Source: Pseudoglutamicibacter albus (GTDB lineage: Bacteria; Actinomycetota; Actinomycetes; Actinomycetales; Micrococcaceae). Taken from it: DNA of 64,000 bases. The notes under the pieces were generated by a model. It was given only the letters and a program-made list of their open reading frames with translations, was not told the DNA's origin and searched no databases. The stretch spans positions 1 to 64,000 of the forward strand of contig NZ_JAKRCW010000007.1 in assembly GCF_022346425.1 (NCBI RefSeq), given 5' to 3'. Shown in pieces: positions 36,000 to 55,687 of the stretch. The translations under genes were made by a program, and so were the position numbers. Within the stretch, counting starts at the first letter, position 1; each line of letters begins with the position of its first letter.

Positions 36000-36929
36000 C
36001 TACCGAGTGGCTGGTGGCGGGACGGGCTGAAGTTCTGCGGCTGCACTGAAGGCCACGGATTCGGTTTCCCATACTTGGCGTAGAGCCCAGAACCTTTTCC
36101 ACGCGTTTTCGAGGCTGTGAGGTTGTGCCCGCATCGGTAGCACCTCAGTTTCACCGAGAGCCACGGCGAGCAGAACACTGTTTTTAGGGAACGGCCACGG
36201 CTCCCACGTCCCTTTTTCTGGGTCGCTCAGATATTCCTCGGCTTGCGCGCCGGCGGCGAGTTGCATGACAACCTTAGGGTCTGGCGCTTTAACACGGCCA
36301 TCCCGGGTGGTGCCGCGCGTCTTATAGTCGATCAGGCAGGTCGCTCCCCCGATCTCGGCAACCAGATCGAGTGTGCCGGCGTAGCCGACAGTGTGGTTCC
36401 AGATAGTGACTTCCGGTTCGATAGGCCGAACACCAAAGAGATCCCACCATTCATCGAAACGATCCGCATAGGCGCCTTCCCCGTGTTCTTTGAGGATTTC
36501 ACGCATCTGTGCGGCCTCGTGCGGGCGGCCAAGCTCACGCAGAGCCTTGTGTTCGGCATAGTTGTGGACCCGGTCTCCACGGGCCGCTGCCTCGTCACGG
36601 TATTTCTCCGCCGCGGAAGAGGCCTGCCGTGCAATCTGCTTGAGCTGGATCTTATTGCCCACTGACGTTGGTAAACGCTCGTCATTGATGACCGCGGTCG
36701 CGGCCATATGCCCAGCCCAGCCCGTCATATCCACCGCGTGGCGGGAAATCACGGTGGTGATCGAGGGAACTTCGGGGAGCCCGCCCACGGTGCGTGAATA
36801 CATACGCCCGAGGGAGGTCTGGTGCGCGAGCAATGGCTGTGTCATGCTCCCAAGTTTGTCACCTACCCCTGACACATTGCTCACCGACACATTGCTCGCT
36901 GAGGCATTGCTCACTGACACTTTGTTCAC
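36000..36929 (-). CDS. PD-(D/E)XK nuclease-like hypothetical protein
   Basis: Up to 309 residues. The segment VGYAGTLDLVAEIGG followed by CLIDYKTRG has the GT-D...DxK arrangement of RecB/Cas4-type PD-(D/E)XK nucleases, with the lysine in DYKT. A helical region with HNYAEHKAL precedes it. I cannot name a pathway; no helicase or phage genes are adjacent. The first 20 residues from GTG 36929 are an in-frame Ser-Val-Ser-Asn repeat; ATG 36845 is an alternative start but has GGGAG only one base away. Confidence 0.6.
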   Translation of the reverse strand: MNKVSVSNASASNVSVSNVSGVGDKLGSMTQPLLAHQTSLGRMYSRTVGGLPEVPSITTVISRHAVDMTGWAGHMAATAVINDERLPTSVGNKIQLKQIARQASSAAEKYRDEAAARGDRVHNYAEHKALRELGRPHEAAQMREILKEHGEGAYADRFDEWWDLFGVRPIEPEVTIWNHTVGYAGTLDLVAEIGGATCLIDYKTRGTTRDGRVKAPDPKVVMQLAAGAQAEEYLSDPEKGTWEPWPFPKNSVLLAVALGETEVLPMRAQPHSLENAWKRFWALRQVWETESVAFSAAAELQPVPPPATR

Positions 36930-36956: not shown

Positions 36957-36974
36957 CATCAACCGAAAGGTTGA
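36957..36974. promoter_or_regulatory. Palindromic element, copy 1 (upstream of DUF2871 operon)
   Basis: CATCAACCGAAAGGTTGA contains the inverted repeat TCAACC-GAAA-GGTTGA. An identical 18-mer occurs at 53626-53643. Here it lies 152 bases before the DUF2871 start and 28 bases from the divergent nuclease-like start. Confidence 0.6.
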
Positions 36975-37125
36975 GCTGACTTTCAACACAGATCGCGATG
37001 TTTCTGCCTCTTCAAAGAAGTTGAATGACGTTAAAGTCCGGACCCCATTCCCGAACCCCAATAAAGGCCGAACCCGTTGCGCCTCTGCCGGAACCTGAAG
37101 CGCCGGAACCGAAAGGAACTGAACC

Positions 37126-37578
37126 GTGAAGAAGCTGCTGAACGCATCCTTGATCTATTTGATCGCAGGCTTGACCGCCGGCGTTTTCTACCGTGAATTC
37201 ACCAAGATCAACGAATTCCCAGAAGGCCAGTTCACGCAGCTTGGGGTTGTACATACACACTTGCTCGCACTTGGTTTCATGGGGTTTCTCATATTTCTCG
37301 TGGTCGAGAAGGTTTTCTCGATTTCTGACAGCCCCAAACTGTTCGCTTGGTTCTTCTGGCTCTACAACGCCGGTCTCGTTGTGACGTCAGCGATGCTCAC
37401 CTGGCACGGCAGCCTCACCGTACTTGGCCGGGACTCTTCGGCCATGATCTCCGGCATCGCAGGCTTGGGACACATCGCCATTTCGGCCGGCCTCATCGTC
37501 TTTGTTGTGGCTGTGCGCCGCGCAGTCACACCTAAAATTGTTGCTGCATCTTCCACCAACGGAGCGACCATTCGATGA
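37126..37578 (+). CDS. DUF2871-family membrane protein
   Basis: 150 residues with four membrane helices, beginning KKLLNASLIYLIAGLTAGVF; the HTHLLALGFMGFL segment has histidines typical of DUF2871. GAAAGGA lies 7 bases before the GTG start. It overlaps the next gene by 4 bases. Function is not known; the intramembrane histidines suggest haem or metal contact, as a guess. Confidence 0.75.
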   Translation: MKKLLNASLIYLIAGLTAGVFYREFTKINEFPEGQFTQLGVVHTHLLALGFMGFLIFLVVEKVFSISDSPKLFAWFFWLYNAGLVVTSAMLTWHGSLTVLGRDSSAMISGIAGLGHIAISAGLIVFVVAVRRAVTPKIVAASSTNGATIR

Positions 37579-38054
37579 CTACTACATCACCAAGCAAGCC
37601 TGTCAGCCCTCGCCTGCTGTTCCGCACCTTCGCCATCGCAGAAATATTCACATGGGCAGGGCTCATTACCGCGCTGATCCTTCGCGCACTCGATGTCGCC
37701 AACATCGTGCCGATTGCCGGCGGCATCCACGGGTTCGTGTTCTTGAGCTATGCTACCTCCACCGTTTTCGTGTGGGTCAACCAAAAGTGGCCGGCCCGCA
37801 TCGGCCTCACGGGCGTGCTGCTTGCAGTCGTGCCGTTCGCAACCCTGCCGTTTGACCTCTACGTAGACCGCAGGGGCCTGTTGAAGGGCGGATGGCGATT
37901 AGCGCCGGGAGGTGAGGAACCGAAAGGTTTCATCGAGCACGTTCAGGCGTGGGTTTTACGTCATGTGTGGCTCGCGGCCGTGCTGTTGGTTGCGTTCGTT
38001 GCGTTGCTGTTCGTGACGTTGCTGTGGCTTGGACCGCCAGTGCCTCGAAGCTAA
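37575..38054 (+). CDS. DUF3817-family membrane protein
   Basis: 159 residues with about four membrane helices: LFRTFAIAEIFTWAGLITAL, PIAGGIHGFVFLSYA, a third helix before DLYVDRRGLL, and a fourth near the C-terminus. This fits DUF3817. It is coupled to DUF2871 through an ATGA overlap. A role is not known. Confidence 0.78.
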   Translation: MTTTSPSKPVSPRLLFRTFAIAEIFTWAGLITALILRALDVANIVPIAGGIHGFVFLSYATSTVFVWVNQKWPARIGLTGVLLAVVPFATLPFDLYVDRRGLLKGGWRLAPGGEEPKGFIEHVQAWVLRHVWLAAVLLVAFVALLFVTLLWLGPPVPRS

Positions 38055-51610: not shown

Positions 51611-51645
51611 GTCTAGAAGCGCGGCATAGCAGCGCGGTCTAGAAC
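51611..51645. repeat. 26-bp spaced duplication spanning the response-regulator stop
   Basis: GTCTAGAAGCGCGG and GTCTAGAACAG recur 26 bases apart; CTA at 51639 is the TAG stop of the minus-strand regulator, and the other CTA is at 51613. Confidence 0.6.
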
Positions 51646-52274
51646 AGTCCGCGTTCTCGGGCTTCGGCGACGGCCTGGGTGCGGGAGGTCACCCCAAGTT
51701 TTTCGAATACGTGAACCAGGTGGGTCTTCACTGTTGCTTGCGAAACAAAGAGTTTCTGGGCGATCTCGGCGTTCGTGAGCCCGTCTGAGACGCACTGCAA
51801 CACTTCCAGCTCGCGCAGCGTCAGGCTCGGCAAGGGTGAGACGAGCCGTTCCATGAGACGGCTCGCTATCGCCGGGGCGAGCGCTGACTGGCCAGCGGCT
51901 GCCGCGCGCACTGCCGGCAACAGCTCTTCCGGTGGGGCGTCCTTGAGCAGGTAGCCTGAGGCTCCGGCCTCGACTGCCGCGAGAATATCGGCGTCCGTAT
52001 CGTGGTTGGTCAAAACCAAAACCGGCATCGTGAGCCCCGCTGCACGCAGACGCTGAATAGCTACCGCGCCGGAGCCTTCATGGTCTAGCCGCAGGTCCAT
52101 CAAAACCAGGTCAGGGCGCTCCCGCTCAACCTCGGCAACAGCATCGTCTTCGCTTCCTGCCTCCCCCACTACCGTGAGGTCATCTTCCATCTCCAGCAGG
52201 GCGCGCAAACCAGCCCGGACCACGGGATGATCATCCACCACAACAATGCGGATGCGATCACGTGCTTCGCTCAT
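51639..52274 (-). CDS. NarL/LuxR-family response regulator
   Basis: 211 residues. The receiver has the acidic pair VVVDDHP and phospho-Asp in LVLMDLRLDHEG. The LuxR helix-turn-helix is LTLRELEVLQCVSDGLTNAE through ATVKTHLVHVFEKL. It pairs with the overlapping histidine kinase (4 bases) and lies near an ABC exporter pair that it may control. Confidence 0.93.
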   Translation of the reverse strand: MSEARDRIRIVVVDDHPVVRAGLRALLEMEDDLTVVGEAGSEDDAVAEVERERPDLVLMDLRLDHEGSGAVAIQRLRAAGLTMPVLVLTNHDTDADILAAVEAGASGYLLKDAPPEELLPAVRAAAAGQSALAPAIASRLMERLVSPLPSLTLRELEVLQCVSDGLTNAEIAQKLFVSQATVKTHLVHVFEKLGVTSRTQAVAEARERGLF

Positions 52275-53581
52275 AGCTCCTCCTCGCCGGTGTTACTAGC
52301 TTGCCCCGCTCCGTTCTGGCCTCCGCCTTGTGACGCGTCGGCTTCAAGCGGGATCCGTACAGAAATCCTTGTGCCCTGACCGGGCCGGGCATCCACCACG
52401 AGTTCCCCGCCCAGCTGTTGGGCCCGCTCACGCATCAAAGCCAAACCAAAGTGGCCTCTGCCCGGTGTGCCTTCCGGCGCTTTCGACGGACTAAAACCAA
52501 CCCCGTCATCGCTGATCGTGAGTGTCGCCGTGGCGTCATCGTGCTCAAGTGAAACCAAAACCCGGTGGGCCTGGGAATGCTGGCGGGCATTACCTACCGC
52601 CCCTTGAGCGATCCGCAGCAGCGCAGACTGTTGGCTCATCGTCAACGGTGGGTCATCACTCATCACGACCACGGCCGGGCCTGCCCCCACATCGGCGAGC
52701 CGCTCCAGGGCACCGGTGAGCGTTTCATCAGACAGCGCCGCCGGTGCCATCCTGCGCAGCATCCCTCGCGTCTCTGACTGCGCGTCTTCGGCTGCCGAAC
52801 GGGCCATGACGATGTATTCCTTCGTCTTACGATGCTCATCATCGGTTGGCAGGCCACGTTCCGCGGCGTGCAACAGCATCTGGATCGAGGACAAGGACTG
52901 GGAGACACCATCGTGAATCTCTCCAGCTAAGCGGGCACGTTCAGCCTGCACCCCGGCCTCCCGTTGACTCACGGTCAGTTCCCGCTCCGTGTCCAAGAGT
53001 CTCTGTAGCAGAGATTCACGCATTGCCGCCTGATACGCGACCGCGCGCAACGCCCAACCAATCATGATGCTGACCGATGCCCCCAGGACAGGGCCGATCA
53101 CAACCGCGAAAGAAAACCCGATGTGAAGGGAAACAAAGAAAATAGCGCAGGCCGTGGCGGCCGCAACAGCGACCGTGCCGAGCTTCATCCCCAAGAGGAA
53201 CAGCAACGCGAAAAAGAACGGAAACACCAAATACGAGGCTTCCAGGATCTGGCTCGCCGCCAGCATCCACGCCGCCCCCATGAGGCTCAGCCCGGCCACG
53301 GTTGCCGCGGTGTTTTCGTGAACCTTGCCTCGCTCAACCTGAATCGCGCCACCGGCCCACCCGGCAACGAAGAGCACAACGCCTGCCATGCCTAGCCAAC
53401 CGTGATGCGTCTGCCCCGGCGTCTTACTCAGCCCCACACCGGCCGCGAAAGCAATACCAGCGCACACGAGCATCACAATGTGCAGGCCAGCCCGCAACAT
53501 GCGGAAGGCCGGGGCCATCGCTGAAACAACATGCTCCGGCTCCGGCACTGCACGGGCAGAAGAAGGCGTGAGCTCAACCAT
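52271..53581 (-). CDS. Sensor histidine kinase (HisKA_3)
   Basis: 436 residues. About five or six membrane helices up to residue 190, a coiled-coil linker, then the HisKA_3 helix ERARLAGEIHDGVSQSLSS with the phospho-acceptor His. The ATPase domain has NARQHS, DDGVGFSP and GHFGLALMRERAQQLGG. There is no large extracellular sensor domain, so it may sense the membrane or a partner transporter. Confidence 0.93.
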   Translation of the reverse strand: MVELTPSSARAVPEPEHVVSAMAPAFRMLRAGLHIVMLVCAGIAFAAGVGLSKTPGQTHHGWLGMAGVVLFVAGWAGGAIQVERGKVHENTAATVAGLSLMGAAWMLAASQILEASYLVFPFFFALLFLLGMKLGTVAVAAATACAIFFVSLHIGFSFAVVIGPVLGASVSIMIGWALRAVAYQAAMRESLLQRLLDTERELTVSQREAGVQAERARLAGEIHDGVSQSLSSIQMLLHAAERGLPTDDEHRKTKEYIVMARSAAEDAQSETRGMLRRMAPAALSDETLTGALERLADVGAGPAVVVMSDDPPLTMSQQSALLRIAQGAVGNARQHSQAHRVLVSLEHDDATATLTISDDGVGFSPSKAPEGTPGRGHFGLALMRERAQQLGGELVVDARPGQGTRISVRIPLEADASQGGGQNGAGQASNTGEEEL

Positions 53582-53582
53582 A

Positions 53583-53627
53583 TGTATGAGAATACTGCGC
53601 TCAACCGCACGCCTTGACGCTCATACA
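53583..53627. promoter_or_regulatory. Inverted repeat in the HK/ABC divergent region
   Basis: TGTATGAG (53583-53590) and CTCATACA (53620-53627) are perfect inverted 8-mers 29 bases apart, starting right at the kinase start codon; a possible response-regulator site. Confidence 0.4.
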
Positions 53628-53643
53628 TCAACCGAAAGGTTGA
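53626..53643. promoter_or_regulatory. Palindromic element, copy 2 (upstream of ABC exporter)
   Basis: Identical to 36957-36974 (CATCAACCGAAAGGTTGA); here the palindrome extends one pair to ATCAACC-GAAA-GGTTGAT. It lies 153 bases before the permease start. Confidence 0.6.
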
Positions 53644-53796
53644 TCCTCGGCCTCAACCATGTTGGCAACCAAGATCAGTCCTCCGCGGGATCTATTCATG
53701 GGCGGAAATCGATGGAATGGAGATAACGAAAACCAGGCTGCACCGCAGGCAGTGTTGCATCGCAGCGTGGGGCAAGTACGAACGAAAGAGGTTGAA

Positions 53797-54894
53797 ATGT
53801 TCCTGGCTTGGCGTGATGTGTTACACGCGAAGGGACGCTTCGCGATCATCACGGTGGTAGTGATGCTCATGACTTTGCTCGTGGGGTTTCTGACCGGCTT
53901 GACCGGCGGGCTCGCCGGCGCCAACGTCGACACCGTGCGGTCTTGGAAGGCAGACCGCCTCGTGATGTCGGCCCCCACCGGCGCTCAGAGCGCAAGTATG
54001 TCCACCTCGTCCATCTCCCCTGAAGCCCAGCGCGAGTGGGAAGAGCACATTGGCCAGACCAACGTGACCGCCATCGGCGTCACACAAATCTCGGCAAGCC
54101 ACGAGGAGAACACCACCGGCGTTGCGATCATGGCGCACGGCCCTGGCGCTGACCTTGGCGCCGGCACAGGCCCGAACCAGGCCGACGACGCGGCAGCACC
54201 GACCGGCAGCGACGTCACAGTGAGTGAAGACGCCGCGGAAGAACTCGGTGTTCAGGCTGGTTCCACGATCACGGTCGCAGGCCACGAGTTCACGGTCTCT
54301 GAGGTCACTGGAACCGGTCACTATTCTCACGTGCCCGTCGTAGGGATGTCGTGGACCGCGTGGCAAGAACTCTCCGAACGCACCGGAGGCAGCGGCCAAC
54401 CGAACGCTTTGTTAGTGCATGCAGATGTTTCCGATGACGACGCCCAAGCCATCAACAAGGCCGCGAACACGGTCTCCCCTGCCGGGTTCGATCAGCTCTT
54501 GGCCGTTGGTTCTTTCCGTTCCGAGGTCGGCTCGCTCGGGCTCATGATCGGGATGCTCATGGCGATCTCCGCGCTCGTTGTCGGAGCGTTCTTCACCGTG
54601 TGGACGCTGCAACGCACCCGGGACATCGCCGTGATGCGCGCACTCGGCTCCCCCGTGAGCGCCCTTCTGCGCGACGCGATCGGCCAATCCTTGCTCGTTC
54701 TAGCGGTTGGTGTTGGTGCGGGAATCGGGATCATCATGCTGGCTGGGCCAGCGGTCTCTGCGAACGTACCGTTCGTCAGCAACTGGCTCACAACGCTCGT
54801 CCCTGGACTACTCATGACGCTCTTGGGGCTCATCGGTGCAGCGTTCGCCCTCCGTTCAGTGACCAAAGCTGATCCGATGCAAGCCCTCAGCTAA
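53797..54894 (+). CDS. FtsX/MacB-type ABC transporter permease
   Basis: 365 residues from ATG 53797 (MFLAWRDVLHAKGRF), which has GAAAGAGG upstream; the frame is open from 53659 but without a plausible earlier start. One N-terminal helix, a periplasmic domain of about 200 residues, then three helices in the FtsX arrangement (LGLMIGMLMAISALVVGAFF, DIAVMRALGSPVSAL). It works with the ATPase 73 bases downstream. The two-component genes are divergent, so self-regulated export is likely. Confidence 0.88.
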   Translation: MFLAWRDVLHAKGRFAIITVVVMLMTLLVGFLTGLTGGLAGANVDTVRSWKADRLVMSAPTGAQSASMSTSSISPEAQREWEEHIGQTNVTAIGVTQISASHEENTTGVAIMAHGPGADLGAGTGPNQADDAAAPTGSDVTVSEDAAEELGVQAGSTITVAGHEFTVSEVTGTGHYSHVPVVGMSWTAWQELSERTGGSGQPNALLVHADVSDDDAQAINKAANTVSPAGFDQLLAVGSFRSEVGSLGLMIGMLMAISALVVGAFFTVWTLQRTRDIAVMRALGSPVSALLRDAIGQSLLVLAVGVGAGIGIIMLAGPAVSANVPFVSNWLTTLVPGLLMTLLGLIGAAFALRSVTKADPMQALS

Positions 54895-54967: not shown

Positions 54968-55687
54968 ATGCTTTCCCTCACCAACCTGACCCTGACCTAC
55001 CCGGACGGCAACGACACCGTGACCGCGCTCGATAACGTGACGCTGAGTCCTGAACCTGGCACGCTCGTCGGAATCACGGGGCCATCCGGGTCAGGTAAGT
55101 CCTCGCTGCTCACGGTCGCGGCGACACTGACACAACCGGATTCGGGGTCCGTCATGATCGACGATGTTGAGGCCAGCCGCTTAAGCGCGGCACAAGCCGC
55201 GCGTCTGCGTCGCGAGAAAATCGGGATCGTGTTCCAGCAGTCCAATCTTCTGCCGTCACTAACCGCGCACGAACAGGTGCGCGCGGTGGTTGAGCTCGCG
55301 GGAACGCGAGTACAGAAACGTGCCGCGCGTATCCGTGCCGGTGAGCTACTCGAAGCAGTAGGGCTCAGCGAGCAAGCGAACCTACGGCCATCCCAGCTCT
55401 CCGGTGGGCAGCGTCAACGCGTCAACATCGCCCGCGCGCTGGTATCCAATCCGTCGGTGCTGCTCGTGGACGAACCGACCTCCGCGCTGGATTCACGTTC
55501 AGGTGCGACCATCATCAACCTGTTGATCCGCATGACCAAGCAACTCGATGTCACCACTCTCCTGGTGACCCACGACCTACAGCACGCCCACCGCTTCGAT
55601 GAAATGGTGACCCTGGTCGATGGTCGGATCACCGAGCACACCAAGGAAACCTCGCAGATCACAGTCGGCCAAGCCCAGTTCGCGTAG
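54968..55687 (+). CDS. ABC transporter ATP-binding protein (LolD/MacB type)
   Basis: 239 residues: GITGPSGSGKSSLLTV, Q-loop FQQSNLLPSL, LSGGQRQRVNIARAL, VLLVDEPTSALD and H-loop LLVTHD. It energises the FtsX-type permease encoded just upstream. Normal length. Confidence 0.93.
   Translation: MLSLTNLTLTYPDGNDTVTALDNVTLSPEPGTLVGITGPSGSGKSSLLTVAATLTQPDSGSVMIDDVEASRLSAAQAARLRREKIGIVFQQSNLLPSLTAHEQVRAVVELAGTRVQKRAARIRAGELLEAVGLSEQANLRPSQLSGGQRQRVNIARALVSNPSVLLVDEPTSALDSRSGATIINLLIRMTKQLDVTTLLVTHDLQHAHRFDEMVTLVDGRITEHTKETSQITVGQAQFA

Follow-up and report, generated by a model that had tools for sequence, protein, structure and literature searches.

The closest described counterparts of the locus analyzed here are the ChrSA-hrtBA systems of Corynebacterium glutamicum and Corynebacterium diphtheriae, in which a kinase and a LuxR-type regulator are encoded divergently from hrtBA, with one central operator. 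In C. glutamicum, one central ChrA site drives both chrSA and hrtBA (PMC6850329); hrtBA is described as the only known target of ChrA, and HrrA is described as binding more than 200 regions (PMC7337898). A ChAP-seq motif, CMAMCDAAAGKTKGA, has been published for C. glutamicum HrrA, the paralogue of ChrA, rather than for ChrA itself (PMC12327846). The C. diphtheriae HrtBA complex is represented by structure 7W7D, with Glu219 of HrtB as the axial heme ligand (PMC11442138), and HsmA of Clostridioides difficile is reported to be a heme-binding and heme-sequestering membrane protein (PMC11442138, PMC12670364).

The window (the whole stretch of 64,000 nucleotides that was analyzed) resembles the corynebacterial systems in this layout as well as in its proteins, ChrA and HrtB being the nearest PDB relatives of the regulator and the permease. 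It departs from them in that a second operon, DUF2871-DUF3817, carries an identical copy of the putative operator (Table 1). We consider it highly likely that the adjacent ChrSA-type system uses this palindrome as its operator, through which hrtBA/chrSA and DUF2871-DUF3817 would be switched on in heme stress. An operator of the ChrA/HrrA type is of a known kind, and the palindrome very probably belongs to it, with protein binding predicted.

Table 1. Features of the window that bear on the two boxes, with positions in the window
Feature	Position	Strand	Evidence
Box 1, putative operator upstream of DUF2871-DUF3817	36957..36974 (core 36959-36974)	.	exact copy, genus conservation, HrrA-motif fit
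Conserved block TTTCAACAC-N-GATCGCGATGTTT downstream of box 1	36981..37003	+	22/23 columns unchanged in 4 genus genomes
DUF2871 membrane protein, 150 aa, four helices	37126..37578	+	PF11070 E 3.6e-46; model pLDDT 89.7
DUF3817 membrane protein	37575..38054	+	PF12823 E 8.4e-17; start overlaps DUF2871 stop
Response regulator, ChrA homologue, LuxR/NarL type	51639..52274	-	best PDB match 4yn8, E 1.1e-54
Sensor kinase, ChrS-like, HisKA_3	52271..53581	-	PF07730, PF02518; adjoins ChrA and HrtBA
Box 2, putative operator between ChrS and HrtB genes	53626..53643 (core 53628-53643)	.	exact copy, family conservation
HrtB, predicted heme-efflux permease, 365 aa	53797..54894	+	sole PDB match 7w78_B over the full length, E 2.8e-50
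HrtA, ATPase	54968..55687	+	ABC_tran; HrtA chains 7w7a_A and 7w78_A rank third and fourth in the PDB search

The two boxes and the genes beside them

The palindrome CATCAACCGAAAGGTTGA had been noticed at two places in a sequence-only reading of the window, and both 18-bp copies are indeed exact. No further match was found in the window with up to three mismatches allowed, and shuffled windows gave an expectation of 0.03 matches, with none of 100 shuffles reaching two. The perfect inverted repeat within it is the 16-mer TCAACC-GAAA-GGTTGA, of which there are exactly two copies in the host genome (Pseudoglutamicibacter; 2,218,488 bases in 34 contigs, 99.94% complete). With one mismatch to TCAACC-N4-GGTTGA allowed, the genome contains 20 sites: 18 lie inside reading frames, and the two intergenic ones are the window boxes. 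Seventeen one-mismatch sites fall within mechanical reading frames, the third exact TCAACC-N4-GGTTGA site (C31:4920) falls within a 245-aa frame of L004, and C29:105129, two mismatches from the 16-mer, likewise falls within a reading frame. A scattered repeat was rejected on these counts, since only the window pair is intergenic; the genome-wide search, proposed along with the first observation, turned up two intergenic sites rather than many copies strewn about without relation to genes. Two closely fitting intergenic sites also set this genome apart from the more than 200 regions bound by HrrA.

Footprinting within the genus (with G103, a genome of the same species, and two further relatives, G001 and G002) found the box 1 core, together with the A and the G that flank it, unchanged across four genomes, with variable surroundings, and one base of box 2 different in two of the four. 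The conserved block just downstream of box 1 is possibly a promoter or a secondary half-site. On the other side of box 1, a 309-aa gene (36000-36929, minus strand) lies divergent from DUF2871, with its listed start about 30 bp from the box; it has no Pfam match and is 94–95% identical in two genus relatives. Box 1 could act on this gene too.

The FtsX-type ABC exporter beside box 2 is HrtBA, an identity that was absent from the sequence-only reading, as was the link to heme; heme export is predicted for it. Searched against the PDB at E up to 0.01, the permease (its start picked by homology, the open reading frame extending further upstream) has a single match, the C. diphtheriae permease of entries 7w78-7w7d, and its E243 aligns with the heme ligand Glu219. 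The best PDB match of the regulator is entitled “Response regulator ChrA,” followed by NarL at E 2.5e-36, and the stretch ATVKTHLVH of the helix-turn-helix is identical between the two regulators, that of the window and ChrA. The HisKA_3 kinase is encoded beside the regulator and divergent from hrtBA. By analogy with the corynebacterial systems, kinase and regulator would form a ChrSA-type pair, with sensing of heme by the kinase predicted.

The two boxes had also been said to lie 152–153 bp before a start codon, and this near-identity had been taken to suggest a shared operator or transcription start architecture. The distances hold closely: 151 bases lie between box 1 and the DUF2871 start (GTG), and 153 between box 2 and the HrtB start (ATG). 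The spacing does not hold as a signal, and we rejected it as such because the distances vary across the family and even within the species. Boxes with up to one mismatch stand 74–200 bp (median 117) before HrtB and 36–174 bp (median 92) before DUF2871, and random pairs drawn from the two distributions fall within 2 bp of each other in 3.6% of cases. In the same-species genome G103, the distance is 151 bp at DUF2871 (L062) vs. 200 bp at HrtB (L083), because the HrtB leader is 47 bp longer there (window 53579-53799 compared with L083:2593-2860). The matching spacing in the window is thus a coincidence and carries no information; as a simple scan also found no promoter-like site at either box, a start architecture common to both operons is unsupported.

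Recurrence of the box in relatives

In both window copies, CAACCGAAAGGTTGA fits the motif published for HrrA at 15 of 15 positions, a fit at every position that is shared by only 9 of 58 HrtB boxes and 5 of 17 DUF2871 boxes. The consensus over the 58 HrtB boxes reads aTCAACC-[GA][AT][AT]N-GGTTGAt. Among 99 genomes (the host’s own and those of relatives), TCAACC-N4-GGTTGA occurs at 97 sites in 53, vs. 8 sites in 7 for the reversed control.

Within 300 bp upstream of HrtB starts, a perfect core was found in 38 of 74 and a core with one mismatch in 15 more (53/74; 0 and 0.06 expected); upstream of DUF2871, the counts were 9 of 24 and 6 more (15/24; 0 and 0.04 expected), these figures pooling loci some of which (L005-L034 and most of L035-L054) had been fetched because of an exact box. 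The counts cover 74 distinct HrtB and 24 distinct DUF2871 sequences, with first-order Markov resampling (50 per sequence) as the control; loci with a match more than 5 residues from the start or with less than 150 bp upstream were dropped, L028 and L029 among them despite their exact boxes. The HrtB set was filled from the homologue list, several weaker second copies in one genome being left out. In the family’s DUF2871 loci, 15 sites with up to one mismatch lie in 7.2 kb of upstream DNA vs. none in the other 73.9 kb. A box with up to one mismatch is missing before 21 of the 74 HrtB starts; 13 of these show at least four mismatches, including the closest HrtB homologues outside the genus (52–53% identity, L086-L088).

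The proposal of a shared operator is strongly supported: the box recurs upstream of both gene types across the family, its two copies are the sole intergenic sites of their kind in the genome, it fits the HrrA motif, and the adjacent response regulator, which had earlier been proposed for a binding test, turns out to be the ChrA homologue.

Some further sites stand apart from these. Two boxes lie 46–47 bp apart in some loci (L005, L008, L009); a DrrA/ABC-2 type exporter operon has a box about 60 bp ahead of it (L034:1501); and another precedes a 116-aa membrane-like protein with neither a Pfam nor an NCBIfam match (L042:3015). Box sites inside mechanical frames (L011-L015, L022, L030, L031, L036, L052) probably match by chance and were left aside.

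A second sample consisted of the best 80 of 584 DUF2871 relatives with names; it leans to close relatives because only these were kept, and it includes near-duplicates (e.g., groups of Corynebacterium and Brevibacterium). Within these best 80 of 584, the closest relative is that of Pseudoglutamicibacter cumminsii (L152), at 82% identity, which puts the window in that genus or very near it, in another species. The DUF2871 start could be placed in 78 of the 80 loci in one scan and in 79 in another. A box with up to two mismatches lies upstream of DUF2871 in 29 of these best 80, and 15 more have a box only at an MMPL gene in the DUF2871 cluster; in 8 the regulator is present and no box was found (the MMPL start lying outside the locus in two), and in 28 neither a box with up to two mismatches nor the regulator was found near DUF2871. 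This sample also has 11 sites with up to one mismatch that are not upstream of DUF2871, and all of them stand just before MMPL homology (identified by Pfam in three loci and by tblastn elsewhere). Four g23 genomes of the family sample (G024, G051, G113, G132) share the order regulator-box-MMPL-DUF2871, and HrtB was not found in them at E 1e-20, which makes MMPL a candidate substitute exporter.

Several other arrangements were seen at DUF2871 loci. MMPL genes are clustered with a ChrSA-type kinase, the regulator, and DUF2871, often with a box before MMPL, in L150, L145, L146, L033, L143, L144, L153-L156, L178, L202, L222, L224, and L225; the clustered MMPL transporters are candidate heme exporters of another family. 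In 14 Brevibacterium loci (L180, L181, L184-L186, L189-L193, L195, L197, L200, L223), a diverged box of the TCAATCN4GGGTCA type, with three mismatches, lies 34–37 bp before DUF2871. The DUF2871 gene is apparently broken by an in-frame stop in L071 and L160 and apparently split over two frames in L077/L081.

The box precedes a gene of the HsmA family in two genomes that belong to one genus (L045:2988-3430 and L040:2550-2992): the former matches TIGR03987 at E 3.3e-41, and its L040 homologue is 97% identical, the family match there starting past the box, from residue 25 of its mechanical frame. Like HsmA (TIGR03987), DUF2871 is a small helical membrane protein; unlike HsmA, it matches no NCBIfam model at E up to 0.001 and belongs to another family, so that the analogy is one of role only. 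In the passages of the literature that mention DUF2871, we found no statement tying it to heme regulation; its recurrent place in a heme-stress regulon, as predicted from the boxes, would be new.

The predicted fold of DUF2871

H43 and H45 (VHTHLLxLG) and H116 (GLGH) are invariant in 56 DUF2871 sequences. The AlphaFold model, built on an 18-sequence alignment, has four helices (pTM 0.81), and structure searches with it lead to heme-copper oxidase subunit I (COX1, CcoN, qNOR). In Foldseek against the PDB, the first 12 matches are cytochrome oxidase complex chains, with E values of only 0.1–0.9. In VIA-align, the top 44 are oxidase or NO-reductase chains (Z 10.8–15.1, 124–140 residues aligned), and the first other fold after them is mPGES-1 at Z 10.6. 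Helical models can reach a best Z of about 14 with no clear relative, according to the tool’s own warning, so the uniformity of the list weighs more than the scores. The model aligns with residues 337-483 of the bovine enzyme (1occ), which we take to be helices IX-XII.

Oxidase subunit I consists of three four-helix arcs, and its helix X carries ligands of both hemes. The model of DUF2871 looks like one of these thirds. Sequence comparison failed to prove the relation: the Pfam COX1 model matches DUF2871 at E 8e-4, below its cut-off, DUF2871 being the second and only other match to that model in three Pseudoglutamicibacter genomes (again below the cut-off), and in a COX1 comparison 8 of 18 members appear at E up to 1. 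Alignment with CtaD by hhalign was not significant with either the 18-sequence (A1) or the 56-sequence (A6) alignment; with A1 the top alignment covered an N-terminal portion of CtaD, and with A6 it covered helix X, placing H43/H45 opposite H-F-H. A search of the PDB with hmmsearch gave CcoN at E 0.13 with A1 and not at all with A6, and in one weak alignment the H-x-H of the second helix stands opposite H-V-H of CcoN; both H-V-H and the H-F-H of CtaD lie where the oxidase binds its hemes. SEC11A, the top match in that search (E 0.0046 with A1, 0.0012 with A6) over 33–36 residues only, was judged a chance helix match. An oxidase has twelve helices with copper-ligating histidines; DUF2871, with four helices in 150 aa and none of the copper-ligand helices, is not called an oxidase, since the rest of the enzyme is absent. 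A bolder reading, which we think quite unlikely, is that DUF2871 is a free-standing third of subunit I, a single four-helix unit with its H-x-H heme ligands, that assembles with itself, perhaps into a trimer that rebuilds the ring of the oxidase, and serves as a heme holder in heme stress under the control of ChrA.

Alternative explanations and the heme-stress regulon

The rival that deserves most weight, though still rather unlikely, accepts the palindrome as ChrA’s operator and assigns DUF2871 to respiration, as an accessory or assembly factor of oxidases or in heme supply or uptake for them, instead of detoxification. The oxidase-like predicted fold would suit such a role, and HrrA is described as activating ctaE-qcrCAB and ctaD in C. 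glutamicum (PMC3353115), but the recurrent neighbors of DUF2871 are MMPL transporters and the ChrSA-type system, and elsewhere the box precedes HrtB and HsmA-family genes. It is distinctly unlikely that a different regulator (an ArsR/HTH_20 repressor or another LuxR-type protein) reads the box in answer to a common signal other than heme. The identical core does precede ArsR-type genes in L007, L008 (boxes 864 and 910), L016 (box 1501), and L039 (box 2985), and the host genome encodes three further LuxR-type regulators, the nearest 43% identical; against this, box 2 is flanked by the ChrA-type system and HrtBA, an arrangement shared with many relatives, the HrrA motif matches the box, and there is no ArsR gene among the annotated neighbors of the window boxes. 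The ArsR-associated boxes probably belong to another regulator with a like operator. The core before ArsR-type genes often has TAA-type flanks, and in L020 (box 1501) it lies near an AHSA1 gene; because the same core precedes the former and lies near the latter, a bare core is no proof of control by ChrA.

The remaining two readings do without a regulator. Folded as RNA, the two copies reach -8.5 and -10.6 kcal/mol (z -2.1 and -3.4), as a leader hairpin with a six-pair stem and a GAAA tetraloop might, but such folding is expected of any inverted repeat, and the tetraloops vary among relatives, with GNRA in 3 of the 38 HrtB boxes that have a perfect core, GNRA in 3 of 9 DUF2871 boxes, and UNCG in none. 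As the divergent kinase gene also has box 2 upstream, the scans found no terminator-like site at either box, and site 1 has no Rfam match, we regard a hairpin as very improbable. For chance or a dispersed repeat, the shortness of the palindrome can be pleaded; conservation in the family contradicts it, as do the excess over the reversed control, the intergenic confinement, and the window shuffles, and we rate its likelihood as close to nil.

Returning to control by the ChrSA-type system, the analogy with C. glutamicum and C. diphtheriae (from which heme as the signal, phosphorylation, and activation are taken) would have ChrS sensing excess heme in the membrane and phosphorylating ChrA, whose dimer would bind TCAACC-N4-GGTTGA. 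Box 2 would serve as a single central site from which ChrA turns on both hrtBA (heme efflux) and chrSA (feedback), and through box 1 ChrA would turn on DUF2871-DUF3817. DUF2871 would then most likely bind membrane heme, holding or redox-buffering it while HrtBA exports—although we judge heme holding by DUF2871, taken alone, to be about evenly balanced.

The operator sequence would thus link a heme-export pump that is already known with DUF2871, a membrane protein that has been little studied, giving the latter a testable role, and would widen the range of the corynebacterial heme box to take in the Micrococcaceae and further actinobacteria. The MMPL transporters may be the heme exporters in genomes in which HrtBA was not found. 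If DUF2871 binds heme by an H-x-H of the oxidase type, it would offer a small model of heme holding in heme-copper oxidases, and if the self-assembling third should prove true, a living model of the unit from which respiratory oxidases are proposed to be built.
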